This document shows, one piece after another, positions 5,617 through 20,852 of a stretch of DNA of 23,297 nt. The DNA is from Streptomyces sp. NRRL F-5123. Its GTDB lineage: Bacteria > Actinomycetota > Actinomycetes > Streptomycetales > Streptomycetaceae. The stretch is taken from contig NZ_JOHY01000080.1 in the NCBI RefSeq assembly GCF_000721495.1, forward strand, positions 1-23,297, read 5' to 3'. Below the pieces are notes generated by a model that had not been told where the DNA came from, made no database searches, and saw only the letters and a program-made list of their open reading frames with translations. The number at the start of each line of letters is the position of its first letter. The first letter of the stretch is position 1. The position numbers were made by a program, and so were the translations under genes.

Positions 5617-6183
5617 ATGCCCCCGGTACGCCGTCGGACGCCGCTGCGGCCACCGGACCCGCCCCGAGAACCCCGGGACGGGCCGTGGGTCGCGGCCGCC
5701 CCGCTGGTGCGGGCGGCCCAGGCCGGGGACGCCCTGGCCCTGGGCGACCTGCTGGACCTGCTGACCCCGTACGTCACCCGGCTGTGCACGCCGATCGCGC
5801 AACGGGACGCGCCCGACGCCGTCCAGGAGGCGCTCATCGCCGTCTTCCGCGGCATCGGCGGGCTCGACGACCCGCTCGCGCTGTACGGGTGGGTGCGCAC
5901 CGTCGCCGTCCGGGAGGCGGTGCGGGTGGCCGGGCGCGCGGCGCGCGAGACCCCGGTGGAGCACGTCGAGGGCCTGCCGGCCGCGGCGGGCCCGGAGTTG
6001 GCCGGCGACGTCCGCGACGTCCTGCGCCGGATGACCCCGGAGCACCGGGCGGTCCTCGTGCTCCGCGAACTGGAGGGCCTGGACGAGAAGGCCGCCGGCG
6101 AGGTGCTGAACGTCTCCCGCGGTACGGTCAAGTCCCGGCTGCACCGCGCCCGCAACAGCTTCCGGAAGGCATGGACCCGATGA
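5617..6183 (+). CDS. ECF-type RNA polymerase sigma factor (paralogue 1)
   Basis: A 188-residue two-domain sigma-70 factor that directs RNA polymerase to alternative promoters. Region 2 spans about 30-105 (DAVQEALIAVFRGI at 67-80 as region 2.2; YGWVRTVAVREAVR at 90-103 as region 2.4). Region 4 spans about 136-188, with the helix-turn-helix EKAAGEVLNVSRGTVKSRLHRAR (157-179, quoted in part here: VSRGTVKSRLHRAR). The ATG at 5617 has AGGAGAGG 7 nt upstream; an in-frame ATG at 5542 lacks one. It is translationally coupled (ATGA) to a START-like protein. No anti-sigma gene or extra C-terminal sensor domain is visible. Hand alignment gives about 61 percent identity to the sigma factor at 7719-8243. 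The trigger and target promoters are unknown. Confidence 0.9.
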   Translation: MPPVRRRTPLRPPDPPREPRDGPWVAAAPLVRAAQAGDALALGDLLDLLTPYVTRLCTPIAQRDAPDAVQEALIAVFRGIGGLDDPLALYGWVRTVAVREAVRVAGRAARETPVEHVEGLPAAAGPELAGDVRDVLRRMTPEHRAVLVLRELEGLDEKAAGEVLNVSRGTVKSRLHRARNSFRKAWTR

Positions 6184-7718: not shown

Positions 7719-8243
7719 TCAGTGCCAGGCGCGGCGGAAGGAGGCGCGGGCCCGGAAGAGCCGGGAGCGGACGGTGCCGACGGGCAGCCCCAGCGCGCGG
7801 GAGACCTCCTGCTCGTCCAGGCCCTCGATGTGGCGCAGCGTCAGGACGGCACGGTGCTCGGGCGACAGGCGGTGCAGCACGTCCGCGATGTCGGTGGCCA
7901 GTTCGGCGTCGGTTCCGGAGGGGAGGTCCTCGGTCCCGGTCCCGGCGGCGGTCCGTGCGCGCTGCCCGGCGGTCCGTACGGCCTCCCGGACGGCGATGGC
8001 GCGGACCCAGCCGAACAGCGCCGCGGGCGTCCGGAGCTGCCGGATGTTGCGGAAGACCGCCAGCAGCGCCTCCTGGGTGGCGTCCGCGCCGTCCTGGAGG
8101 GCGACCGCGCCGCAGATCCGGCCGACGTAGGGGGCGAGCATCCCGAGCAGCTCGTCCATCGCGAGCGCGTCGCCCCGCTGGGCGCCGTGCACGAGCCGGG
8201 CCAGCTCCGCCGGCTCGGCCGGCACGCGGTGCCCCTCCGCCAC
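7719..8243 (-). CDS. ECF-type RNA polymerase sigma factor (paralogue 2)
   Basis: A 174-residue ECF sigma factor. Region 2 is at about 17-95 (DATQEALLAVFRNIRQL, then FGWVRAIAVREAVR). Region 4 is at about 122-174, with helix-turn-helix GLPVGTVRSRLFRAR. The GTG at 8243 follows GGAGG at 9 nt. It is about 61 percent identical by eye to the sigma factor at 5617-6183, but lies on the opposite strand and is followed by a hydrolase rather than a START-like protein. No anti-sigma gene lies beside it, although a RsbW-like ATPase is the next gene upstream (8564-9076), separated by a hairpin. That neighbour could be a regulator of either sigma factor, but RsbW-type kinases classically act on sigma-B-type factors, so the link is weak. 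Confidence 0.9.
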   Translation of the reverse strand: MAEGHRVPAEPAELARLVHGAQRGDALAMDELLGMLAPYVGRICGAVALQDGADATQEALLAVFRNIRQLRTPAALFGWVRAIAVREAVRTAGQRARTAAGTGTEDLPSGTDAELATDIADVLHRLSPEHRAVLTLRHIEGLDEQEVSRALGLPVGTVRSRLFRARASFRRAWH

Positions 8244-10170: not shown

Positions 10171-11409
10171 TCAGGCCTTCCACTGCTCCCACGGCATGTT
10201 CCAGCCGTTCAGGCCGTTGTACCACTGCACGGTCTTGTCCTTGGAGTGCACGACCTCGACGACGTCGCCGATGATCGAGCTGTTGTAGAACCACGCCGCG
10301 GGGGTGTCCGGGTCGTGCGCGCCGCGCACGTCGTGCAGGCCGACGCAGCCGTGGCTGGTGTTGCTGTGCCCGAAGACCGAGTTCGCGGCCCAGTAGTTGC
10401 CGTGGATGAAGGTGCCCGAGGTGGTGAGCCGCATCGCGTGCGGCACGTCCTTGATGTCGTACTCCCCGCCGAAGCCGACCGTGTCGCCGTTCATCCGGGT
10501 GGTGACGTACTTCTCGGAGATCACCATCTTGCCGTTGTACGTGGTGTGCTCGGGCGCCCCGGAGGAGATCGGGACGGTCTTGATCACCTTGTTGTCGCGG
10601 TAGACGGTCATCTTGTGCTTGGCGGCGTCCACGATGCTCACCTGGCGGCGGCCGATGGTGAAGTGCACGGACTTCTGCTGCTTGCCGTAGACCCCGGCGG
10701 CGCCCTCGACGCCCTTGAGGTCCAGGCCCAGCGTGACCTTGGTGCCGGGCGTCCAGTAGTCGGCCGGGCGGATGTAGAGGTCCTGGTTGCCGTACCAGCG
10801 CGAGGCGACCTCGACGGACGGCGACGCGGAGACCGTCACGCCGGCCTCGACGGCCTTCTTGTGCGTGATCGGGTGGCTGAAGTGGAGGTAGACCTCCATG
10901 CCGACGCCGACGGTCGAGCCGTCCTCGGGCGTGAAGTAGCCGACGAAGGTGTCCTTGGGGGTCACCGTGGTGAAGGTCGCGTGCTTGTCGGACTCGCGGC
11001 CCTCGGCGTCCTTGGCGGTCGCGTCGACGGAATACTGCGTCGAGGTGTCCAGATGGCCGGTGGGCGACCAGCCCAGCCCGTCGGCGCTGATCTCGCCGGG
11101 CACCTCGGCACCCTTGTCGTCCTTGACGACGACGGTGGACAGCTTGCCGCCGCTCGCGGAGACCTTCAGCTCGCCGGTGGTGGCGACGCCGTCGGCGCCG
11201 TCCTTCGGGGTGATGGTGACGACCGCGGTCGAGGGCGCGGTGTCCGCCGAACCGCCGGCCGTGGCCGACACGGCCGGTTTGGACGGGCCGGACGCGGAGT
11301 CGTCACCGCCCCCGCCGCCCCCGCACGCGGCCGCCGCGAGCAGCGCGGCTCCCAGCACCAGCGCGGATATCTTCCTTCTGACCCCAGGCGCCACGCCTAT
11401 CGGCTTCAC
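10171..11409 (-). CDS. L,D-transpeptidase lipoprotein (YkuD domain), paralogue 1
   Basis: A 412-residue surface lipoprotein that forms 3-3 cross-links in peptidoglycan. I chose the GTG at 11409 because GGGGAG lies 8 nt upstream and translation then starts directly before the signal sequence (KPIG, then VRRK, a hydrophobic stretch and lipobox-like AAAAC with Cys29). Residues about 60-160 and 165-260 resemble the immunoglobulin-like domains of LdtMt2-type enzymes. The C-terminal YkuD domain has HGNYW and the catalytic SHGCVGL with Cys355. The C-terminal tail, with paired Trp residues, is typical of this group. It is clearly a paralogue of the protein at 11889-13100, on the same strand and separated from it by 479 bp that hold a tiny ORF. 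A sigma-E-like promoter lies upstream. Confidence 0.94.
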   Translation of the reverse strand: MKPIGVAPGVRRKISALVLGAALLAAAACGGGGGGDDSASGPSKPAVSATAGGSADTAPSTAVVTITPKDGADGVATTGELKVSASGGKLSTVVVKDDKGAEVPGEISADGLGWSPTGHLDTSTQYSVDATAKDAEGRESDKHATFTTVTPKDTFVGYFTPEDGSTVGVGMEVYLHFSHPITHKKAVEAGVTVSASPSVEVASRWYGNQDLYIRPADYWTPGTKVTLGLDLKGVEGAAGVYGKQQKSVHFTIGRRQVSIVDAAKHKMTVYRDNKVIKTVPISSGAPEHTTYNGKMVISEKYVTTRMNGDTVGFGGEYDIKDVPHAMRLTTSGTFIHGNYWAANSVFGHSNTSHGCVGLHDVRGAHDPDTPAAWFYNSSIIGDVVEVVHSKDKTVQWYNGLNGWNMPWEQWKA

Positions 11410-11469
11410 GTCCGTCTCTCCCCTTGCCCGCTTCCCGCACCTCAGCCCCGGACCTCCCCGGCTGGCGCA

Positions 11470-11492
11470 AGAAAACCACACCACGGGGGTTC
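11470..11492 (-). promoter_or_regulatory. Candidate sigma-E-type promoter of L,D-transpeptidase 1
   Basis: On the minus strand GAAC (11492-11489), then 16 nt, then TCT (11472-11470). This fits the GAAC-N16-TCT form I recall for the Streptomyces cell-envelope stress factor sigma-E, whose targets include cell-wall enzymes. The predicted transcript start is about 54 nt before the GTG. It is a single short match, so chance is possible. Confidence 0.4.
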
Positions 11493-11572
11493 TGAGCGGC
11501 CCGGGATTGTCACCGTTGCGTCCCAGATCGCCGCGGGTCCTGCCGGGTGCGGGCGGCGGGCGCCGCAGCGCG

Positions 11573-11665
11573 CTACTTGCGTGGGGTACCGGGCCGTGAC
11601 GACGGCCGCGGCTTCGGGTCGGTGCTGCATCCCATCTTCCGGCAGTCCGGGTTGGCGCAGGACAT
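11573..11665 (-). CDS. Small 30-residue Cys-containing protein, unknown function
   Basis: An ORF of 31 codons with an ATG at 11665 preceded by AAGGAG at 8 nt, one of the best ribosome binding sites in the window. The product starts MSCANPDCRKMGCS, giving Cys3, Cys8 and Cys13 spaced C-x4-C-x4-C, followed by a basic Pro/Arg/Ser tail ending in PRK. Third codon positions are mostly G or C. It may be a metal-binding peptide or a leader peptide. It lies between two L,D-transpeptidase genes on the same strand, 163 nt before the next start. I do not recognise the family, and its existence as a protein is inferred from the ribosome binding site and codon bias. Confidence 0.6.
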   Translation of the reverse strand: MSCANPDCRKMGCSTDPKPRPSSRPGTPRK

Positions 11666-11793
11666 CGAACTCACTCCTTGCTGTCGTGCAGGCGTATCCA
11701 CCGCGCGAACCGGGACCGCACACGGGTGCGGTTGCCGGAGGCGGTCGTGAAGACGGACGCACGGGAGAGCGATTCGGTTCCCGTACGGGTGAG

Positions 11794-11836
11794 TTCACAG
11801 CATTGCCGCAACAATTCACAGGCCCTTCACCGGAAT
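11794..11836. promoter_or_regulatory. TTCAC direct repeats resembling a PHO box
   Basis: TTCACAG (11794), TTCACAG (11815) and TTCACCG (11826) are spaced 21 and 11 bp apart in an AT-richer stretch. Streptomyces PhoP boxes are 11-nt direct repeats with a GTTCACC-like core. The first copy also forms the palindrome GTGAGTTCAC (11789-11798). The repeats read on the plus strand while the nearby genes run leftward, which weakens the case. Confidence 0.3.
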
Positions 11837-11888
11837 GCGCGCGCGGGCACATGTCCGGGGGAGGTGACCTGCACAATTGCCCGCGCAC

Positions 11889-13100
11889 TCAGAGTGCCGA
11901 ACCGGCCACCCATTGCCGCCAGTCGAGATTCCAGCCGCCCATTCCGTTGTCCGGCGCGACCGTTCCGTCATGGGAATTCACCACCCGGATCGGGTCGCCG
12001 ACGAGCGAGTGGTCGTAGAACCAGCCCGCCGGGGTGCCGGAGCCGCCGCCCTTGGTGTCGAGCAGCCCGATGCAGCCGTGGCTGACGTTGGTGCGGCCGA
12101 AGACGTCCGGCGCGGACCAGTAGTTGCCGTGCACGAACGTGCCCGACCGGGTGAGCCGCATCGCGTGCGGGACGTCGGGGATGTCGTACTCGCCGCCGAA
12201 ACCGACGGTGCGGCTGTCCATCCGGGTCACCGCGAACTTCTGGGCGATCACCATGACCCCGTTGTACGTGGTGTGCCCGGGTGCCCCGGCGGAGACGTCC
12301 AGGCTGCGCACCACCCGGCCGTCGCGCCGGACGGTCATGGTGTGGGAGGCCGCGTCCACTGTGCTGCGCTGGTCGCGCCCGATCGTGAAGTGCACGTCCT
12401 TGGACTGCGTGCCGTAGACGCCGGGCGCCGCCTCCACGTCCCGCAGCCGCAGGTGCAGCGTGACACGGGAGCCGGGCGCCCAGTACCCGGCGGGGCGCAG
12501 GTCGAGGCGCTGGTCGCCGAACCAGTGGCCGACGACCCGTACGGCGGGCTGCGCGGTGACGGTCACCGCGCGCTCGACCGCGGCCCGGTCGGCGACCGGG
12601 CGGCTGAAGGTCAGCGAGACGATCATGGCGTCGCCGACCGTGCTGCCCTCCTCCGGGCTGAAGAAGCCGATCACGGTGTGCTGCGGCACCAGCGTGGTGA
12701 AGGCGGTGTGCTTGGCGGCCTCCCGGCCCTGCCCGTCCTTGGCGAGCGCGTCCACCGTGTACTGCGTGGCCAGCGCGAGCTTCCCGTCCGGCCGCCAGCT
12801 GCGCCGGTCCGCCGCGAGCCGTCCCGGCACCGGCGTGCCGTCCGCCGCCCGCACCCCGACCTCGGTGAGCGTGCCCTGCGCGACGCGCACCGCGAGCGCG
12901 CCCTGCGCGGCGACGTCCCGTGCCCCGTCCCCGGGCTCGACGCTGATGACCGCCCGCGAAACCCGCGCGCCGGCCCCGCCCGCCGCATCCCCCTTCCCGT
13001 CCGGGCCGCCGCCACCGCCCGCCCCGCAGCCCACGGCGAGCACCGCGCCCAGTAGCACCCCCGCACCCGCGCGCACCGCGCGCCGCACTGCTTCTCTCAC
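11889..13100 (-). CDS. L,D-transpeptidase lipoprotein (YkuD domain), paralogue 2
   Basis: A 403-residue lipoprotein L,D-transpeptidase. The signal sequence ends in lipobox LAVGC with Cys25. A Gly-rich spacer is followed by immunoglobulin-like domains (about 45-245), and the YkuD domain has HGNYW and SHGCIGL with catalytic Cys343. GTG at 13100 is used; a second GTG four codons later is better placed relative to GAGAG and cannot be excluded. The domain order and motifs match the neighbour at 10171-11409, so the pair arose by duplication. It starts 61 bp after the stop of the giant TPR gene on the same strand with no strong terminator between them, so low-level read-through from the CHAT operon is possible. 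Confidence 0.94.
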   Translation of the reverse strand: MREAVRRAVRAGAGVLLGAVLAVGCGAGGGGGPDGKGDAAGGAGARVSRAVISVEPGDGARDVAAQGALAVRVAQGTLTEVGVRAADGTPVPGRLAADRRSWRPDGKLALATQYTVDALAKDGQGREAAKHTAFTTLVPQHTVIGFFSPEEGSTVGDAMIVSLTFSRPVADRAAVERAVTVTAQPAVRVVGHWFGDQRLDLRPAGYWAPGSRVTLHLRLRDVEAAPGVYGTQSKDVHFTIGRDQRSTVDAASHTMTVRRDGRVVRSLDVSAGAPGHTTYNGVMVIAQKFAVTRMDSRTVGFGGEYDIPDVPHAMRLTRSGTFVHGNYWSAPDVFGRTNVSHGCIGLLDTKGGGSGTPAGWFYDHSLVGDPIRVVNSHDGTVAPDNGMGGWNLDWRQWVAGSAL

Positions 13101-13161
13101 GCACCGTCAACGACGCACCGCCGCCGGGGAAACGCCGGGCCACCCGGTCACGGGAACGCCG

Positions 13162-16100
13162 TCAGCCGGGCAGCCGGGCCAGCACGTCGCGGGCGCGCTC
13201 GGCCGCGTCGGGCCAGGGGCCGTTCAGCGCGTGGACGTAGGCGGCGCGGGCGCCCTCGAGGTCGCCCTCGCGCAGCAGCAGGCCGCCGAGGTTGACGGCC
13301 GCCATACCGCTCTGCACGGGGTGGCCGGTCGCGAGGACGGAGCGGTAGGCCTCCGCGGCGCCCGCGGGGTCGCCGCGGGCGTCGAGGAAACCGGCGAGGT
13401 CGAAGGCCGCCGGGGGCGACAGGTGCGGGTGGCCGGCCTGGACGGCGAGCCGGTAGGCGGCCGTCGCGCCCGGGACGTCGTCCAGGGCGGCGCGCACCTG
13501 CGCCAGGTGCACCGCCGCCAGGCACGCCAGCTCGGCGTCGGCTGCGTCGAGGGCCTTGCGGTGGGCGGCTTCGTAGGCCGCACCGGCTCCTGCCGCGTCG
13601 CCGCGGGCCCTGCGGAGCACGGCCCGGCAGAAGAGCAGCAGCGCGCCGTCGTCCGGGCCCGCGAGGGCGACCGCCCGGCGGAAGACGTCGGCGCTCCGCT
13701 CGTCGGGGAGCAGCAGGGCCAGATGGAGCTGGGTGCGGGCGCGCGTGTCGCCCGCTGCCTGGGCGGCCCGCAGCGCCGCGACGCCCTCGGCCTCGGGCAG
13801 GTGGTGGCCGAAGTGCCGCGCGAAGTCGAACGGCGGCGGCTGCGGCCCGGTGGCGGGCGCGGGCGGTTCCAGTGCTGCCAGCCGGGCGCGGGCCTGCGCC
13901 GCGATCCCGGGCTCGGGACACTCCAGCGCGTGCCGGTAGGCGGCGCGGGCCTCGCCGGGGGTGAACTCGCAGACCAGCAGGTCGCCCAGGACGAGCGCCG
14001 CCATCGGGGCGCCGGGGCCGTCGAGGGCCCGCTCCAGCGCTTCCCGCGCGCCCGCCACGTCGCCCGCCTGGGCCCGGACGATGCCGACGATGCCGCCGAC
14101 CGCGACCTGCCCCGCCTCGTCGGTCCAGCGCATGAGGAGTTCGGCGAGGATCCGCGCCTCGGCGTACTCGGCGTCCTCGTAGAGCCGGGCGACGCCGTGC
14201 AGCATCGCCTCCGCGTCGCCGCCCGCGACAAGGGAGTTGGTGAGGCGGGCCGCCTCGGACCGGCGTTCCTCGGCAGTGGCGACGAGGTCCAGCCGCCCGG
14301 CCGCGTCGGCGTCGCCGAGGTCGGCCGCACGCTCGTAGGCGGCGCGGGCGCCGGCCAGGTCCCACGCGTCCAGCAGCAGGTCGCCGAGCGCGACCGCGGC
14401 GGCTGCGGCGTGGCCCACGCCGGTGGCGGCGGCGCGGGCGAAGGCGGTCCTGGCCTCGTCCGAGGCGCCGGCGTCCCGGAACGCCAGGCCGCGGCCCGTC
14501 TCGGCCGCTGCGACGATCCACGGGTCGTCCGCCTCGGCCAGTTCGTCCAGCACCGCGAGCATGCCGTCGACGTCCCCCGCCTCGCGCAGCTCCACGGCGC
14601 GCGCCAGTTCCGCCAGCAGGTCGGGGTCCGGGTCCGGGCCTGGTGCGGCTTCCGCGGCGTCCGGCGCGACGTCCTCGGTGGAGGCTGCGGCGAGCGCCTC
14701 CAGCTCGTCGCGTACGGCCAGCAGCCGGCCGGCGAGGTCCGCGTCGGCGGCGGCGACCTCGGCCAGGTCGGAGCGCAGGTCGAGGGCCCGGGACCACAGC
14801 ACGGCCCGGCCCTGCTCCAGGAATTCCACCGCCGCGGCGGGTTCGCCCGCGTCGAGGGCCAGCCGGGCCGTTTCCGCCGGTACACCGCCCTCCCCTGCGA
14901 GCCAGGACTCCTGGGCCTCGCGCGGGGAACCGGGCCAGGCCGCCAGGGCGAGCAGTTCGAGCAGCAGCCGGCAGCCGTCGAGGGTCGCCCGGCCGTCCTC
15001 CCGGTCGGCGACCGCGAGCCAGACCCGTACGGACCGGTAGCGCACCCTGGCCGGGGCGGTGGTGTCGGACGCCAGCCCGTACAGCACCCGCACGGCCTCC
15101 GCCCGGTCCCCCGGCCGCTCGCCGGCCGCGACGCGATGGGCGAGGCAGGTCCCCAACTGGAGGGCGGACAGGACCGATTCGGCCCCGCCCCGGCCCGCGC
15201 AGACGCGGAAGATCTCGACCGCCCGGTCCAGGTCGGGGGCGGCGCCGGTGCGCTCCCAGCGGTCGGCCAGCGCGAGGGCCGCGTTGTGGGCCATGTGCGT
15301 CCACTGCGGCCCCGCCGCCTCCGGGTCGTCGACGAGGGCCAGCACGCGGGCGAGCACGGCGTCGAACGCCGCCGGATCCCGCCGCTCGCCGACCATGTGC
15401 GCCCCGAGCAGTGCGGCGACGGCCTTGCGGTGCTGGGAGCTGCCGGGCGGCAGCTCCTCGACGGCGGTCTCCAGGTAGCCGACCGCCACCGCCAGGTCGG
15501 CCTCGGGGCTCGGCCGCCCGGCGCCGGGGTACGACCCGTGCTCGGCGTTGGCGCGGTCCAGCCGGGCCTGCGCCACGTTGACCAGCCGGGAGGTGTACGA
15601 GTGGTGGGTGCGCGGGGTGAGCTGCAGGACGGTGGTGAAGGCCTCGATCCCCTCGTCCAGGTCGGCGGGGACCGCGAAGAGCCGGTAGCGGGTGAGGAGG
15701 ACGCCGGCCAGGTTGTTGAGCAGCGTCGCCGTCTCCACCTCGGAGCCGTCGCCGTGCGCCGCGTCCGGTGCCGCGGCGTAGTCGTCGCGGACGGCGCGGT
15801 AGAGGTCGACGGCGCGCGAGAGGTCGGCGACGTCGCGGGTCGCCTGGAAGCGCTCGGTGAGGGCCGCGGCGAGGTGGGTGCGGGTGGCGTGGCCGCCGGG
15901 GTCGAGTTCCAGCGCGGCGGTGGCGAGGTCGACGGCGCTCGCCAGGTCGGCGGGCGCGCCCGTCTCCGCGTAGCGCTCGCGGTGGTGGGCCGACAGGTGC
16001 GCGAGCCGGTGGGCGCGGCCGGGGTCGTCGGGGCCGGTCGCGTCGAGGCCCTCGGTGCCGGCCTCGACCGCGCGGTCCAGGTCCGCGAGGGCCCTTGTGA

Positions 16101-18336
16101 AGCCGAACCGTATCCGGTGGCCGAGGCCGAGGGACGTCAGCATGTCCGCGCGGTCGGGGGCGCCGGGGCCCGCGGCGTCGAGTGCGGCCTCCAGGTGCGC
16201 GAGGGCCTGCTGGAGGTCGTCGCGCCGGTGGTGGCGGTGGTAGCGGGCCATGAGGGCGTGGTGCGAGGCCTGCCGGGTCGCGACGGAGATCTCCGTCCAG
16301 CCGTGCGCCGTGGCCCGGTCGAGCACGCGCTGCCAGGCGGGGAGGGCCAGGTCGAGGTGGGGGTCGCCGTCGTCGTGGCCGAGCAGGGTGGCGCAGACGA
16401 CGAGGAGGCGGGAGAGCGTGGCGTGCAGCAGGTCGGGATGCCCGTCGGGGGCGAGGGCCACCGCTTCGGTGAGGGCGTCGACGGCGGCGCGCAGGTCGGC
16501 GGGTGCGGTGGCGGCGTCCGGGCGTTCGGCGCGAAGGTGCAGCACCCTGCCGTAGTTGGCCAGGACCGCGGCGCGGCGGACGGGGTCGAGGGGCCGGGCG
16601 AGGGCCTGCCGGTAGCCGTCGACGGCGAGGTCGGCGGCCTGCGGGTCGTCGGCGTGCTCGGCGCGCTGGTGCAGCGCGCCGGCGAGGGTGAGCAGCGGAT
16701 CGGTCGCGCCGTCGCCCGCGTCGGCGGCGGCGCGGGCGTGGTCGAACGCCTCGTCCAGCAGGCCGGGTTCGGGCTCCAGCTCGTTCATGACCAGCAGCGT
16801 CCCGGCGAGGTCGCCGCGCATCCGCGGGTGGTCCGGGTCGTCGGGCGCGGTACGGGACAGGGCGCGGCGCAGCAGGTCCGCGGCCTCGGACAGCGCCGCG
16901 CGGTCCCGCCTCCTGGACCCGGCGTCGTGCAGGGCGTGGGCGAGGTTGGCCTCGAAGGGGGCGCGCCCGTCGCCCGGCGGCAGCAGGCCCAGGGCGGTGC
17001 GCCCGGCGGCGACCGCCTCGTCCAGGTGGGCCTCCTCCCCGGTGAGGCTCGCGGCCTCGGTCAGGATCCGGCCGAGCCGGTCCCAGCGCAGCGCGGTGAT
17101 GCCGCCGTCGCCGGGGCGGGTCAGCTCCTCGCGGGCCAGGGCGGCAAGGGCGAGGCAGTGCCCGGGCGTCGTGGGAGCGTCGTCGACCGATCGCAGCAGG
17201 GTGTGCCACAGGGCCTGTTCGACGGACGCCCGGTGCGGGGCGCGGGCGACCTCGGCACGGGCGAGCTCCGCCGCCTCGTCGACCTGCTCCTGCGACCGGG
17301 TGCGTATCGCGGCGTGCATCAGGGTGGCGGCGAGCGCGGCGGTGCACGCGGGCCGCTCGGCCGGGTCGAGCGCGGGCAGGGCGGCCCGGTACGCCGCGGC
17401 GGCCTCGGGCAGCGGTGCGTACGCGCCGGTCCGGCGTGCCAGGCCGGACAGCAGGTCGCCGCGGTGCCGGTGCAGCCGGCCGCGGTGCTCGGGCGCGGCC
17501 TCCTCGGCGGCGCGTTCGAGCAGGGCGACGGCCTGCTCCGTCTCCGCCGGGTCGCCGGTGGCGGCGGAGCGGCTGTCCAGCAATGGGGCGAGTTCGGCCG
17601 CGTACATCGCCCGCAGGCGGGGTTCGGCGGGGCTCTCGTGGAGCGCCGTCAGCAGGGTGATCGCCTCGTCCCGCGCGGCCGCGTCGCCGGTGGCGTCGTG
17701 CACGTCGCTCAGGGCGACAGCGAGGAGTGCGGTGTCCTCGTCGCGTTCGGCCCGCCTGCCGTACGGCGGCGCGCACAGCGCCCGGCAGACGTCCACGAGA
17801 TCGGCCCCGGCGTCCGGCCCGCCGGTGAGCCAGAAGAGGTCGGCCAGGATCTGCCGGTGGTGGAGGAGGCGCTCGCGCTCCCCGCTCCTGGCACGGATCC
17901 GTGTCCGGGCCCCGGCTGGACCCGCCGGGGCCAGCAGCCCCGGCACGTACGGCAGATCGCGTAACACCCCGGGATCGTCCCCGGCCGTGCCGTGCAGCAG
18001 CCGCCACGACTGCCGCAGCCGGTCGCGCCTGCGGTCGAGCTCCTCCCCCTCGAAGGCGTCGAGCCCGTGGGTGGCGTGCACGATCGCCTCCCGCAGGGTG
18101 TCCGGCTCCCGCGTGGTGTCCCACGTCTGCTGGAGCAGGAAGCCGAGGTTGGCGGAGTCGAGCGGGTCGCGCTCCGGGAGGCGGCGGCGGACGACGTCCC
18201 GCATGAGGTCGACGGCCTCGGCCAGCCGCCCTTCGCGGTGCAGCGCGGCCACCTTCTCGACGAGCGGGACCAGCAGGTCCGTGCCCGCGCCGGTGTCCTC
18301 ACCGGCGGCGGTGCCGGCCGCGTCGTCCGTGGTCAC
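13162..18336 (-). CDS. Giant TPR protein, the separated TPR half of a TPR-CHAT system
   Basis: A 1724-residue, almost wholly helical protein of degenerate TPR repeats. Residues about 1-1165 resemble the repeat array of actinomycete TPR-CHAT proteins (many ALAEAVDL...A.L-type helices). Residues about 1168-1200 hold the linker LEQGRAVLWSRALDLRSDL, which in those proteins leads straight into the CHAT protease. Here it is followed by a Pro/Asp-rich hinge and about 500 residues of further TPR/Sel1-like repeats, with no catalytic His or Cys. The protein is probably a sensor or scaffold for the protease at 19301-20557. The GTG at 18336 overlaps the preceding stop as GTGA with GAGGAG 5 nt upstream; the GTG at 18342 overlaps that site and is less likely. 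Leu125 is TTA (17962-17964), implying bldA-dependent translation. Confidence 0.85.
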   Translation of the reverse strand: MTTDDAAGTAAGEDTGAGTDLLVPLVEKVAALHREGRLAEAVDLMRDVVRRRLPERDPLDSANLGFLLQQTWDTTREPDTLREAIVHATHGLDAFEGEELDRRRDRLRQSWRLLHGTAGDDPGVLRDLPYVPGLLAPAGPAGARTRIRARSGERERLLHHRQILADLFWLTGGPDAGADLVDVCRALCAPPYGRRAERDEDTALLAVALSDVHDATGDAAARDEAITLLTALHESPAEPRLRAMYAAELAPLLDSRSAATGDPAETEQAVALLERAAEEAAPEHRGRLHRHRGDLLSGLARRTGAYAPLPEAAAAYRAALPALDPAERPACTAALAATLMHAAIRTRSQEQVDEAAELARAEVARAPHRASVEQALWHTLLRSVDDAPTTPGHCLALAALAREELTRPGDGGITALRWDRLGRILTEAASLTGEEAHLDEAVAAGRTALGLLPPGDGRAPFEANLAHALHDAGSRRRDRAALSEAADLLRRALSRTAPDDPDHPRMRGDLAGTLLVMNELEPEPGLLDEAFDHARAAADAGDGATDPLLTLAGALHQRAEHADDPQAADLAVDGYRQALARPLDPVRRAAVLANYGRVLHLRAERPDAATAPADLRAAVDALTEAVALAPDGHPDLLHATLSRLLVVCATLLGHDDGDPHLDLALPAWQRVLDRATAHGWTEISVATRQASHHALMARYHRHHRRDDLQQALAHLEAALDAAGPGAPDRADMLTSLGLGHRIRFGFTRALADLDRAVEAGTEGLDATGPDDPGRAHRLAHLSAHHRERYAETGAPADLASAVDLATAALELDPGGHATRTHLAAALTERFQATRDVADLSRAVDLYRAVRDDYAAAPDAAHGDGSEVETATLLNNLAGVLLTRYRLFAVPADLDEGIEAFTTVLQLTPRTHHSYTSRLVNVAQARLDRANAEHGSYPGAGRPSPEADLAVAVGYLETAVEELPPGSSQHRKAVAALLGAHMVGERRDPAAFDAVLARVLALVDDPEAAGPQWTHMAHNAALALADRWERTGAAPDLDRAVEIFRVCAGRGGAESVLSALQLGTCLAHRVAAGERPGDRAEAVRVLYGLASDTTAPARVRYRSVRVWLAVADREDGRATLDGCRLLLELLALAAWPGSPREAQESWLAGEGGVPAETARLALDAGEPAAAVEFLEQGRAVLWSRALDLRSDLAEVAAADADLAGRLLAVRDELEALAAASTEDVAPDAAEAAPGPDPDPDLLAELARAVELREAGDVDGMLAVLDELAEADDPWIVAAAETGRGLAFRDAGASDEARTAFARAAATGVGHAAAAAVALGDLLLDAWDLAGARAAYERAADLGDADAAGRLDLVATAEERRSEAARLTNSLVAGGDAEAMLHGVARLYEDAEYAEARILAELLMRWTDEAGQVAVGGIVGIVRAQAGDVAGAREALERALDGPGAPMAALVLGDLLVCEFTPGEARAAYRHALECPEPGIAAQARARLAALEPPAPATGPQPPPFDFARHFGHHLPEAEGVAALRAAQAAGDTRARTQLHLALLLPDERSADVFRRAVALAGPDDGALLLFCRAVLRRARGDAAGAGAAYEAAHRKALDAADAELACLAAVHLAQVRAALDDVPGATAAYRLAVQAGHPHLSPPAAFDLAGFLDARGDPAGAAEAYRSVLATGHPVQSGMAAVNLGGLLLREGDLEGARAAYVHALNGPWPDAAERARDVLARLPG

Positions 18337-18947
18337 GGGCACTCCTCGACCGGCTGGACGGTGAGGACCCGCGCCAGCTCCACCGCCGCGTCGCCGGCGG
18401 CGGTGTGCAGGGTGAGGGTGCCGCGGGCGACGCCCTCACTGCTCCCGCACAGCGTCGCGCCCGGCAACTGGACGCGCAGCTGCGGCGGTTGCTTCGGCGG
18501 GCCGTACCAGGTGGTGCCGACCGCCAGGACCAGGAAGGCGGCGCAGGCCACCGACCCGGCGATGCCGCGCCGCAGGTCGGCGAGGGCGGCGACGGCCCGC
18601 GCGTGGTCCTGGGTGAGCGGGCTGCCCGCGGCGGGCGGGGTGAGTCGGGGCGGGCCGTTGGCCGCGCGCAGCAGGCACAGGCCGCCCGCCGCACCGGCCA
18701 GCAGGGCAAGGAGCAGCAGCACGCCGATGACGACGTGCCAGGGTGGGGCGACCTTGTCGATCTCGGTGCGCCCCTTGACGAGGCCGAAGCCGACCAGGGC
18801 GGCGAGCAGCCCGGCGAGCCCGTTGCGCCAGGCGGCGGCCGCCGCGCGGACCCGGGGCAACTCCTCGCGCAGGGCCTGGTGCCGGTTGCGGGCGCGGGCG
18901 GCGTCGGCGGGCCCGGCGGGGGGTCCGGGCCGCAGCGGGGCGCTCAT
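18333..18947 (-). CDS. Three-TM membrane protein of the CHAT-TPR operon
   Basis: A 204-residue protein not assigned to a family. A Pro/Arg-rich cytoplasmic N-terminus with a helix at about 16-40 is followed by hydrophobic segments at about 41-58, 71-93 and 128-147. A C-terminal domain of about 55 residues is beta-like and contains two separated Cys residues. The ATG at 18947 overlaps the previous stop (ATGA), and the stop overlaps the TPR start (GTGA), so it is translationally coupled on both sides. That coupling argues for a fixed ratio with the TPR and Cys-rich proteins. It may anchor the complex to the membrane, or be a membrane effector acted on by the CHAT protease; both are inferences. 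No ribosome binding site is evident, as expected for coupled translation. Confidence 0.8.
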   Translation of the reverse strand: MSAPLRPGPPAGPADAARARNRHQALREELPRVRAAAAAWRNGLAGLLAALVGFGLVKGRTEIDKVAPPWHVVIGVLLLLALLAGAAGGLCLLRAANGPPRLTPPAAGSPLTQDHARAVAALADLRRGIAGSVACAAFLVLAVGTTWYGPPKQPPQLRVQLPGATLCGSSEGVARGTLTLHTAAGDAAVELARVLTVQPVEECP

Positions 18948-19255
18948 GACGCGGTGAGCCGCAGCAGCCAGTACGCGCCGCAGCCGACGCTGCCTTCCGG
19001 GCTGCCGGGGTGCTCGCCCTCGCACGTGCAGATGACCGGTTCGACACGCTCGGCGGGCGCGGGGGCGGCCGTCCGGCGGAAGAGCGGCAGGCTCTTGTAC
19101 GTGCCGGTGACCACGGGGACGTACATCAGCCCGCGGCAGCGCGGGCAGGGACCGGCCAGTTCGACCGTGCCGGGGCGTATCTCGGTGGCGGCGAAGGTCA
19201 CGGCGGCGTCCCGCGCGTAGTCGTCGTGGGTCGTCTCGTCGTACGCCTCACACAA
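18944..19255 (-). CDS. Small Cys-rich, zinc-ribbon-like protein with TTG start
   Basis: A 103-residue protein of unknown family. CPRC (37-40) and CTC (76-78), followed by His82 and Cys92, give a plausible zinc-ribbon pair. Between them lies a conserved-looking GLMYVPVVTGTYKSLPLF segment. The start is TTG at 19255: AGAAGGAGG is 7 nt upstream and no ATG or GTG fits the frame nearby. Its stop overlaps the ATG of the membrane protein. It lies 45 bp after the CHAT protease gene in the same operon. The likely role is a structural or adaptor subunit of the CHAT/TPR/membrane assembly; a substrate role is equally possible. The rare TTG start may limit its output. Confidence 0.78.
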   Translation of the reverse strand: MCEAYDETTHDDYARDAAVTFAATEIRPGTVELAGPCPRCRGLMYVPVVTGTYKSLPLFRRTAAPAPAERVEPVICTCEGEHPGSPEGSVGCGAYWLLRLTAS

Positions 19256-19300
19256 GGGGGCGCCTCCTTCTGCTCTCGGCTGGTGCGCGCTGGGGGCCGG

Positions 19301-20557
19301 TCAGGGGCCGGTGTGGGTGAAGGCCGCCCAGCGGCTGGGGCGTTCCGGTTCCGCGTCGCGCAGCCGGCGCAGCGCACCGGCCGCGGCGTCCGCGGTACGG
19401 GCGGGGTCGAGGCGGCCCGCGGTGACGAGCGCGGGGAAGAGTTCGGCGGCGAAGGCGGACGCGGCCTCGGCGTCCACGGACCACAAGGTCGCCAGGACGT
19501 GCCGGAATCCGGCGTAGTGCAGCCCGGCGCCGAGGGTGACGACCTCGTCGGCGAGCTCGATCCCGCCGGTCGCGGTCATGCAGGCCGACAGGAAGGCGAA
19601 GCCGCCGTCGAAGCGGTGCGCGCCGAGTTCGGCGACGGTGAGGACTCCGTCGGCGAGCAGCAGGCCGCCGTGCGAGGGGTCGAGCAGGCTCTGCCGCCCG
19701 TGGCAGCTGAAGTGGGCCCAGCGGTGGTCGCGCAGCTCGCACAGGACGCGCTCGCGGGTGGCGTCCGCGCCCTCGACGACGGTGAGCCGGTCCGGCGGCA
19801 ACAGCCGCCGCAGCAGATCGAGTTCGGCCGCGGCCTGGGGGAGCGGCGGGTCGGCTGCGGGGGCGACGGCCAGCATCCGGTCGGCGCCGCCGGACGGTTC
19901 GGTACGGGCGCGGGCCAGCGCCCGCAGCGTGGGCACCGACGACGGGACGGCGCGGTCGAGCACGCTGCGGCCGCTGCCGTCGTGGTGCCCGGCGGCGTGC
20001 AGCGGCAGGAAGCCGAGCGGACCGGTCGGGCACCACCAGACGCGATGCGAGGCCGCCGCGCGCAGCACCGGCGCGGCCACGGCCTCCCACAGCCAGCGCA
20101 GGTCGTCCAGCAACCGGGCGTCCAGGTCCTCCTCGGCCGCGCGCAGTTGCCGCTTGGCGGTGTGGTGGTCGTGGAAGCTGCCGAAGGACGGGCGGGCCAG
20201 GGCCCGCCGCTCGGTGCGGCGGACGCGTGCGGCGGCGTCGTCCACCTCGCCCAGCCGGCCGATGTGGCCGGCCACCCGCTCGCCCACCTCCTGTGCGTCC
20301 AGGTCCGGCAGCGGGAGCGTGCGCACGCCGGACGCCTCGACGAGCAGGGCGTCGCAGCGCCGGCCGGTGACGTTGACCATCGCCAGGGTGCCCGTGCCGA
20401 CGGCGGGGAGCAAGGACTCCAGCCGCGGCGGCCGGAGGAAGTCCGCGAAGCCGGGCCCGAGCGAGCGGACGCGCGCGACCAGCTCGTCCCACTCCCGCGC
20501 CCGCGCGAGCTGCCGGTCGACGGCGCTGCCGCGGCGGCCCGGCGGCTCAGCTGACAT
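19301..20557 (-). CDS. Stand-alone CHAT-domain (caspase-like) protease
   Basis: A 418-residue CHAT-family cysteine peptidase, related to caspases and separase. HFSCHG gives catalytic His286 and FLSACMTATGG gives catalytic Cys326, so the dyad is complete. The region before it (VWWCPTGPLGFLPLHAAG, then PTLRALARAR) is the usual N-terminal half of the CHAT fold. The first 60 residues (AREWDELVARV, ADFLRPP) match the segment that follows the TPR linker in single-chain TPR-CHAT proteins, so this gene encodes the protease half only. CHAT proteases cut specific partners, for example in CRISPR-linked Craspase and gasdermin systems. The ATG at 20557 has no ribosome binding site, and TACATT lies 7 nt before it, suggesting a leaderless transcript. 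It is the first gene of a four-gene operon. Confidence 0.9.
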   Translation of the reverse strand: MSAEPPGRRGSAVDRQLARAREWDELVARVRSLGPGFADFLRPPRLESLLPAVGTGTLAMVNVTGRRCDALLVEASGVRTLPLPDLDAQEVGERVAGHIGRLGEVDDAAARVRRTERRALARPSFGSFHDHHTAKRQLRAAEEDLDARLLDDLRWLWEAVAAPVLRAAASHRVWWCPTGPLGFLPLHAAGHHDGSGRSVLDRAVPSSVPTLRALARARTEPSGGADRMLAVAPAADPPLPQAAAELDLLRRLLPPDRLTVVEGADATRERVLCELRDHRWAHFSCHGRQSLLDPSHGGLLLADGVLTVAELGAHRFDGGFAFLSACMTATGGIELADEVVTLGAGLHYAGFRHVLATLWSVDAEAASAFAAELFPALVTAGRLDPARTADAAAGALRRLRDAEPERPSRWAAFTHTGP

Positions 20558-20564
20558 GGCGCCA

Positions 20565-20570
20565 AATGTA
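20565..20570 (-). promoter_or_regulatory. Candidate -10 element of a leaderless CHAT-operon promoter
   Basis: TACATT on the minus strand ends 7 nt before the A of the CHAT ATG, so transcription would start at or next to the start codon. This explains the missing ribosome binding site. A matching -35 is not obvious. Confidence 0.4.
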
Positions 20571-20608
20571 GCCGGGGGAACCGGTGGCCGGTAAGCCCCG
20601 GAAAGACC

Positions 20609-20641
20609 GGAATCCCGACGGAATGCCACCGGAATGCCACC
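20609..20641. repeat. 11-bp tandem repeat (three units) in the CHAT/glgX divergent promoter region
   Basis: GGAATGCCACC is repeated exactly at 20620-20630 and 20631-20641, with a diverged unit GGAATCCCGAC at 20609-20619. The period is one helical turn, so identical faces are presented to a regulator. The site lies 50-85 bp upstream of the CHAT start. The remaining part of 20558-20852 contains no gene that I can support. Confidence 0.5.
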
Positions 20642-20852
20642 GGACCGCGCGGCGCGGTGCCGCGCCAGGGCGCGCCGGGGGTGAGACCGGGCCGCGCGGG
20701 GGGAAGGAAGAGGGCAGGGACACGGCAGGCCGCCGGGCACGGGACGCCCGGTGCGCGGGTACCGTGCGGATCCGCGCGGGGCAGGCGACGCCGCGGGGAT
20801 CCGCCGGGCAGCCTGCGGGCCGCCGCCGTGCCCGAGCCGTGGGAGGGCGTAC

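Follow-up and report, generated by a model that had tools for sequence, protein, structure and literature searches.

Why should a caspase-like CHAT protease be encoded apart from the TPR array to which it is elsewhere fused, and why should two small proteins stand between them? The question is raised by a locus of the soil bacterium Streptomyces sp. NRRL F-5123, analysed here within a stretch of 23,297 nucleotides (the window; contig NZ_JOHY01000080.1). All four genes lie on the minus strand in the order CHAT-CYS-TM-TPR (Table 1), and their layout, as described in an earlier note on this DNA, agrees with the sequence base for base: ATGA at 18947-18944 holds the CYS stop and the TM start, and GTGA at 18336-18333 the TM stop and the TPR start.

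Table 1. Positions of the cassette genes and of their main features in the window.
Feature	Position	Strand	Description
CHAT	19301..20557	-	stand-alone clan CD caspase-like protease, 418 aa, ATG start; Pfam CHAT PF12770
Catalytic His286 codon	19700..19702	-	His in 96/96 aligned CHAT rows
Catalytic Cys326 codon	19580..19582	-	Cys in 96/96 aligned CHAT rows
CYS	18944..19255	-	zinc-ribbon-like small protein of 103 aa; TTG start preceded by GGAGG
TM	18333..18947	-	membrane protein, 204 aa
TPR protein	13162..18336	-	1724 aa
CHAT-specific linker region of TPR protein	14683..15072	-	LEQGR motif at residues 1173-1177
Extra C-terminal repeat region	13165..14649	-	about residues 1230-1724; where single-chain proteins have CHAT fused
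Stretch holding the insertion	13101..20852	.	flanked by ldt (start 13100, minus strand) and glgX (start 20853, plus strand)

The four-gene cassette and its setting

The CHAT protein consists of a REWDEL segment (about residues 10-130) followed by the CHAT domain (152-417; PF12770, 134.5 bits with the cut-off at 24, E 6.5e-39), and the His-Cys pair of this stand-alone, predicted protease is intact. The pair is common to Csx29, the CHAT protease of the type III-E CRISPR system (Craspase), whereas the window CHAT stands alone and alongside a membrane protein gene; its score with the NCBIfam Csx29 model NF041237, 25.3 bits where the cut-off is 300, rules out membership of type III-E. Borvo (BovA) is described in part of PMC10952713 as a CHAT anti-phage protein, and it has the catalytic core in common with the window CHAT. 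However, the match to the PADLOC BovA model was weak and local rather than full-length (17.9 bits, residues 283-375 only), and the window holds a cassette of four genes. A further, faint resemblance to the type III-E TPR-CHAT protein came from a sequence search of the PDB, with a weak match to 7zoq (E 0.072).

The co-occurrence of all four genes, which the earlier note had proposed to look for, was found as a conserved unit in 6 Streptomycetaceae loci (the window, L003-L006 and L088). Because the same succession of CHAT, CYS, TM and TPR genes is seen in L003-L006 and L088, where CYS and TM again overlap by 4 bases (5/5), the arrangement is not due to chance. The TM and TPR genes overlap by 4 bases in L003 and by 10 in L004 and L006, as judged from predicted starts, those of the TPR genes of L005 and L088 being uncertain.

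The distance between ldt and glgX is 7,756 bp in the window compared with 103-548 bp in 32/32 congeners measured, indicating that the cassette was inserted between these genes and acquired as one unit. Alternatively, the operon might regulate the actinomycete envelope as part of housekeeping or development, processing a regulatory membrane protein without a part in defence or cell death; the neighbours, read by eye, are not defence genes, and for CHAT PADLOC offered nothing beyond the weak local BovA match at 17.9 bits. This we consider very improbable, since the TM gene is patchily distributed (52/394 Streptomycetaceae genomes), the insertion separates conserved genes in one lineage, and the system is also present on a Streptomyces plasmid, all of which mark the cassette as accessory.

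No RNA element reached the Rfam gathering score, and an ARAGORN match at 14460-14557 (undetermined), inside the TPR gene, was taken as false. The scan for promoters and terminators, which carries no weight at the G+C content of the window, returned none. By eye, the neighbouring genes read as a transporter, regulators, L,D-transpeptidases and glgX, none of them a defence gene.

The joint between TPR array and protease

In single-chain actinomycete TPR-CHAT proteins (1363 aa in L009 from Lentzea; also L040, L041 and L043) a TPR array is followed by an LEQGR-type linker, a REWDE-type segment and CHAT, collinear with the parts in the window. Here, linker and segment are both present but in separate genes, and array and protease form two polypeptides (1724 and 418 aa) instead of one. 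With LEQGR and REWDEL contiguous in the fused proteins, LEQGR residing in the TPR protein and REWDEL opening the CHAT protein, the break falls exactly at the normal TPR/CHAT junction, as the earlier note had it, and the gene order is indeed reversed, the CHAT gene coming first and the TPR gene last. In contrast to the single-chain proteins, the TPR protein of the window runs ~500 residues past the linker, and a post-linker repeat region of 506-544 residues was found only in this clade among the loci examined, with the open frames of L023 and L042 as exceptions. The earlier note would have been undermined by a linker aligning to unrelated TPR families; in the 30 genomes searched, 48/48 linker matches had a CHAT domain no more than 6 kb away, ruling out there that the linker is a general TPR feature.

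The split is not unique to this strain. The 72 CHAT copies examined comprise 20 split, 42 fused and 10 long copies without linker, labelled by the linker itself, as labels based on length are wrong for L094, L042, L024_10322 and L142_9611. Two of the split copies are less sure: in L023 the linker frame overruns the CHAT frame and a frameshift is possible, and L047 is located at a contig start. The opposite possibility, that CHAT homologues occur without such a TPR gene, found no example among the 72, as no copy with a short N-terminus (0/72) was without a separate TPR gene carrying the linker in the stretch retrieved; in a plasmid copy beyond the 72 (L148), that part of the TPR gene is lost. 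The separate linker-TPR gene may lie up to about 7 kb from the split CHAT gene, and in 7/20 split copies the linker is found in two or three separate TPR genes. The CYS-TM pair is not within reach of 6/20 split copies.

The best CHAT tree holds 8 changes between split and fused forms (linker-based labels), and the well-supported branches alone force 4 (length-based labels). On these trees the split is not a single event, although the well-supported branches force fewer changes than the best tree. The database proteins in the tree were sampled as every fifth protein (24 of 120 listed, 23 after one was dropped), and the rows L026, L047, L142_9611, P0095, L097_14643 and L024_5073 were left out. 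The separation of sensor and protease recurs, always at the same precise point, and some proteases have more than one sensor.

CYS and TM beside clan-CD proteases

The earlier note regarded CYS and TM as two extra subunits of the split form, a view that does not hold. The pair is also found 3' of fused TPR-CHAT genes (L009, L040, L041, L043) and alongside the gene for a caspase-iHD-CE-HSP90-like-wHTH protein (L050, L104, L123), where a Peptidase_C14 is the protease and is combined with HSP90-like domains rather than with TPR-CHAT. This rules out that CYS and TM are consequences of the split and indicates an independent two-gene module that is not specific to it. In 394 genomes of the class, the CHAT protein of the window matches 105 and TM 13; most CHAT genes are without CYS-TM, and CHAT therefore does not need the pair.

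Among 55 TM places, CYS adjoins TM in 50, the window included (same strand), and the two share one reading frame in L052 and L135. A clan-CD protease is encoded within 6.3 kb of TM in 45/55 places, again with the window (CHAT 23, caspase 22), on the same strand in 34 and on the opposite strand in 11. The remaining 10 places are without CHAT or caspase nearby, 5 of them also without CYS; in one of the 10, L052, TM adjoins a gene for what looks like a protease of the trypsin type. These counts derive from six-frame profiles, the gene finder having missed genes in several loci, and the TM profile (A3) was made from 13 sequences, 12 beside CHAT and 1 beside a caspase, two of whose rows (the window and L050) belong to the 55 places as well. 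Some of the seeds of the CHAT and caspase profiles likewise came from these loci, an overlap that is avoided in a Pfam-based check covering 30 hand-picked genomes of the 52 that are TM-positive: here, 29/33 TM places lie within 5.7 kb of a match to PF12770 or PF00656, the exceptions being G101, G690 and single places in G657 and G677.

It might be argued that unrelated genes simply hitchhike in one transcription unit, as is always possible in general. Such chance co-localisation is hardly conceivable here and in the main refuted: the density of 106 CHAT and 44 C14 genes in 263.6 Mb amounts to 0.8% per 14 kb, so that a clan-CD protease is expected near TM in about 0.8% of places, compared with the 45/55 observed; moreover, 11 of those 45 proteases are on the strand opposite to TM, and short CHAT copies without a nearby linker-TPR gene number 0/72.

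Neither CYS nor TM matched a Pfam family at cut-off, and two fold searches gave no match at E <= 0.001. CYS has six conserved candidate metal ligands (C37, C40, C76, C78, H82 and C92). TM is composed of a conserved, charged N-terminal helix, two clear transmembrane helices and a weak one, and a C-terminal Sm-like beta-barrel in which C167 and C203 are invariant. Of the three transmembrane helices that the earlier note assigned to TM, the second and third are clearly hydrophobic and the first is weak (Kyte-Doolittle value above 1.6 in 0/57 rows, above 1.25 in 52/57). The Sm-like domain is predicted to be outside if there are three helices and inside if there are two, and the weak hydrophobicity of the first means that an outside location is not assured.

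Another close parallel is the EACC1-caspase pair, a two-gene membrane conflict system described in part of Kaur et al. 2020 (PMC7159879) as a small conserved membrane protein with a clan-CD protease and variable partners, prevalent in actinobacteria. There, as in the window, a small membrane protein adjoins the protease, but EACC1 as presented in that source has one transmembrane helix and is encoded 5' of the caspase, whereas the TM protein has two or three helices, an Sm-like domain and CYS as a companion, and CYS-TM is usually 3' of the protease, as TM is of CHAT in the window. EACC1 was absent among the 25 families shown for 57 TM proteins. In the open-licence PMC literature, which is weak evidence on this point, we found no account of CYS, TM or the split actinomycete TPR-CHAT. 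CYS and TM constitute a membrane module of two genes, neither of which reaches the cut-off of a Pfam family, and this module is common to two markedly different kinds of caspase-like protease in bacteria.

Possible roles of the module

Craspase provides a model of how the system in the window may be regulated. As set out in part of PMC9729208, the TPR-CHAT linker moves when a non-self RNA target is bound, and CHAT, whose substrate Csx30 is encoded next door, becomes active. Our preferred reading, which we place only just short of an even chance, is that CHAT, TPR and CYS-TM form a horizontally acquired protease module in which the TPR protein gates CHAT and CHAT acts on the membrane-bound pair. 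The TPR protein would serve as sensor and gate, docking on CHAT in trans through the linker and keeping it inactive, in the manner of the TPR region of Craspase, until a trigger releases the protease to act on CYS-TM. In the version we favour, a cytoplasmic, zinc-ribbon-like CYS would cap TM, and cleavage of CYS or of a cytoplasmic part of TM would alter the state of TM, leading to growth arrest or death. CYS-TM could then be the common output of proteases with different sensors, namely TPR arrays and HSP90-like ATPases.

The information may also flow in the other direction, with CYS-TM as input: an Sm-like domain on the outside would sense damage to the envelope, adsorbing phage or a signal from the cell wall, and the charged N-terminal helix and CYS would relay this to the TPR/CHAT protease, which would have its substrates elsewhere. 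The three-helix topology that places the two-Cys domain outside, the conservation of the N-terminal helix of TM, and the proposal of Kaur et al., in the part of PMC7159879 used here, that single-helix EACC1 is a membrane sensor for the caspase are in keeping with such a role. We nevertheless think it unlikely, as the first helix is weak (0/57 rows above 1.6) and the same CYS-TM is common to proteases with different sensor-like parts, TPR or HSP90-like ATPase, which makes the pair easier to explain as a shared output or anchor. That CYS-TM is a mere membrane anchor or scaffold for clan-CD proteases, neither sensing nor executing, would be consistent with its recurrence with several proteases on either strand, but is distinctly unlikely given that a plain anchor needs neither six conserved candidate ligands nor a domain with two invariant cysteines.

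Returning to the preferred reading, in which CHAT acts on CYS-TM, it can be extended to a general membrane executor, with a zinc-ribbon cap and a possibly ring-forming Sm-like barrel opened or altered by proteolysis, of TPR-CHAT, caspase-HSP90 and perhaps trypsin-type systems, the split CHAT being served by two or three TPR sensors, interchangeable and each with a CHAT-docking linker at its end. This extension is possible but doubtful; if true, it would amount to a membrane output in bacteria that is not a gasdermin and has combinatorial sensors. More generally, the occurrence of CYS-TM beside several kinds of caspase-family protease hints that signalling by these proteases is tied to the cell membrane in a common way. 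We infer that CYS and TM may be substrates, with TM equally able to be an input, and they are the first candidates as substrates or partners of the protease. The module and the split together offer testable handles on the trigger and the targets of caspase-clan proteases in multicellular bacteria.

The system may have a role in surveillance or cell death, as the earlier note envisaged. With PADLOC, the caspase partner in L104 matched the defence 'caspase' model (28.6 bits); the fused TPR-CHAT from L009, the L013 TPR protein and the trypsin-like gene in L052 matched nothing.

The cassette and the TPR/CHAT junction

The window's four-gene cassette encodes a caspase-like CHAT protease, a small zinc-ribbon-like protein (CYS), a membrane protein (TM) and a repeat protein (TPR). 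As read previously, CYS and TM share an ATGA and TM and TPR a GTGA in the window sequence. Pfam gave no match for CYS, a sole, sub-threshold match to cytochrome b561 for TM and only sub-threshold TPR models for the TPR protein. The His/Cys pair of CHAT (H286, C326) is kept in 96 of 96 aligned rows.

Features of the window discussed in this part
Feature	Position	Strand	Remarks
CHAT	20557-19301	minus	418 aa; Pfam CHAT 6.5e-39
CYS	19255-18944	minus	103 aa; TTG start
TM	18947-18333	minus	204 aa
TPR protein	18336-13162	minus	1724 aa
Big_10/L,D-transpeptidase genes	10171-13100	minus	tandem pair
ECF-sigma-like gene	5707-6183	plus	small
ECF-sigma-like gene	7719-8243	minus	small

In fused proteins, an LEQGR-type linker joins the TPR array to an REWDE-type segment and CHAT. 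The fused chain of locus L009 reads LEQGRGVSWSQLLDMRTDL..., then RRIAAAHEWEELVAQVR...; in the window, LEQGRAVLWSRALDLRSDL lies in the TPR protein from residue 1173 and RQLARAREWDELVARVR opens the CHAT gene. Parts contiguous in L009 are thus divided between two genes, and the break falls at the normal junction, as the earlier note proposed. A linker profile made from seven fused proteins only matched the window TPR gene at 2e-24, and a 15-row profile found two places in the window's genome, this gene and, on contig C13, a fused TPR-CHAT. Across 30 genomes, hand-picked from the 52 carrying TM for this and the Pfam check below, 48 of 48 linker places had a PF12770 hit no more than 6 kb away, which bears out a CHAT-associated linker rather than one of unrelated TPR proteins.

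Splitting of CHAT from its TPR partner is common among the loci examined. The linker shares a reading frame with CHAT in 42 of 72 copies and belongs to another gene in the stretch, up to ~7 kb away, in 20, the other ten being long CHAT proteins without this linker; these loci were partly picked by TM or CHAT similarity, so the counts are not a frequency in nature. The pairing of short CHAT with a TPR gene also stood, as no short CHAT among the 72 copies in the fetched loci was without a separate linker gene. On a quick CHAT tree with long branches, the window's protein is one of 11 members of an all-split clade (SH-aLRT 100); split/fused state changes eight times on the best tree (59 labelled rows), and starred branches alone force four changes with earlier length-based labels. 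A further repeat region of 506-544 residues follows the linker in the window's clade, and separate linker frames outside it stop 2-38 residues past the linker except in L042 (275) and L023 (562); the L023 frame continues across that of CHAT, perhaps through a frameshift. In 7 of the 20 split loci (L008, L010-L014, L102), one CHAT has two or three linker-TPR genes nearby. In the Frankia loci L012 and L013, two such genes flank one CHAT, the upstream one codirectional with it and the other convergent, and are candidate sensors for a single protease. L102 (6799-14667) has the order TPR-CHAT-CYS-TM-TPR, with a linker-TPR gene on either side of the split CHAT.

The CYS-TM pair and its proteases

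The CYS-TM pair recurs beside clan-CD proteases. TM profile A3 has 55 matching places, in 52 of 394 Streptomycetaceae genomes; CYS adjoins TM at 50, and a protease lies within 6.3 kb at 45 (23 CHAT, 22 caspase; 34 on the TM strand, 11 opposite), with protease-CYS-TM order at 33 of the 55. A Pfam-based check of the 30 picked genomes placed a protease near 29 of 33 TM places; as a density control, 106 CHAT and 44 Peptidase_C14 genes in 263.6 Mb correspond to 0.8% per 14 kb. The ten places lacking a nearby CHAT or caspase are L052, L105, L106, L124, L135, L134 and L136-L139, of which L134 and L136-L139 have no CYS either and rank with the weakest A3 matches. Among 394 genomes from the class, profile A1 matched 13. 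Its six strong matches (E < 1e-50; G000, G233, G251, G162, G016, G196) all adjoin a CHAT; of seven weak ones, four were inspected (G084, G119 and G214 were left out), lying by a caspase-HSP90-type protein (G225), a TPR-CHAT (G056) and a trypsin-like gene identified by eye (G101), or alone (G049).

Judged by domain content, the pair is also borne by a second protease class, unrelated to TPR-CHAT, the caspase-HSP90-like proteins. At L050 (9579-15737), L104 (9734-16042) and similar loci (minus strand), a caspase(C14)-iHD-CE-HSP90-like-wHTH protein of ~1,700 aa precedes CYS and TM; the Pfam scan covered three such partners (L050, L104, L123; 1,664-1,767 aa) and returned Peptidase_C14, iHD-CE and a wHTH-HSP90-associated domain. 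The partner at L132 is a caspase-helicase protein (C14 with AAA_11/12), and those of L112 and L118 appear interrupted or different in gene prediction.

Several arrangements depart from these. At L132 (10988-17608, minus), CYS-TM also adjoins a TPR protein that partly matches CHAT. CYS and TM form a single frame at L052 and L135; the gene convergent with it at L052 (3193-5149), which we take by eye to be an effector-associated domain with a trypsin-like protease, had no PADLOC match. At L044 (6643-11320), the pair faces a TPR-CHAT from the opposite strand, and its 161-aa TM stops short of the Sm-like domain. CHAT proteins of L091-L093 and L095-L098 have a long N-terminal part in which the TPR linker was not found, and CYS-TM is still paired.

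Proposed working

In Craspase (PMC9729208), TPR-CHAT is autoinhibited, the linker shifts on target binding to free CHAT, and a neighbour gene encodes the protease substrate. By analogy, we infer that the TPR subunit would dock on CHAT through the linker and gate it, with CYS-TM as membrane-side partner of the gated protease. The pair is common to proteases with different sensor parts, and is therefore more likely an output than an input, although input to the protease is a real rival, as is a membrane anchor.

Actinobacterial caspase conflict systems are already known, as are CHAT proteases and TPR-CHAT (PMC7159879, PMC8195603, PMC9729208 and PMC10952713). Searches of open-licence PMC papers turned up neither the CYS nor the TM family, and no account of CYS-TM common to CHAT and caspase-HSP90-like proteins or of split TPR-CHAT with several TPR partners. 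We assign the cassette to the TPR-CHAT kind; its accessory CYS-TM module appears to be new.

Insertion and spread

The cassette is a discrete insertion. The gap from ldt (13100) to glgX (20853), measured from their matches, is 7,756 bp in the window and 103-548 bp (median 340) in all 32 congeners whose ldt and glgX share a contig (G444 and G453, with the genes on different contigs, fall outside this set); together the four cassette genes take up 7,396 bp and thus make up nearly the whole insert. The glgX-side copy of the Big_10/L,D-transpeptidase pair adjoins glgX in all 32 congeners. The two ECF-sigma-like genes, identified by eye from sequence, are alike and ~1.5 kb apart.

A Streptomyces tendae plasmid (L148, 11344-15439; NZ_CP043960.1) carries a relative with CHAT, CYS and TM. 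Its TPR gene aligns to residues 1-792 only of the 1,592-residue TPR protein of L006, a relative with the window's gene order, and the linker was not found in this copy. The half-recognisable TPR gene overlaps a gene annotated uppS.

In the protein database, a length-limited search returned 341 CHAT proteins resembling the window's, the best 120 mostly stand-alone (410-450 aa), with 409 proteins matching TM and 252 matching CYS; the best 120 of each of the latter two had no precomputed Pfam domain. For at least 37 of the 120 listed CHAT proteins, the longest contig has exactly the same size as that of some TM or CYS protein in the lists; an offset control gave a mean of 1.1 and a maximum of 4. 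Genera among the matches listed include Streptomyces, Micromonospora, Nonomuraea, Actinomadura, Kitasatospora, Amycolatopsis and Frankia.
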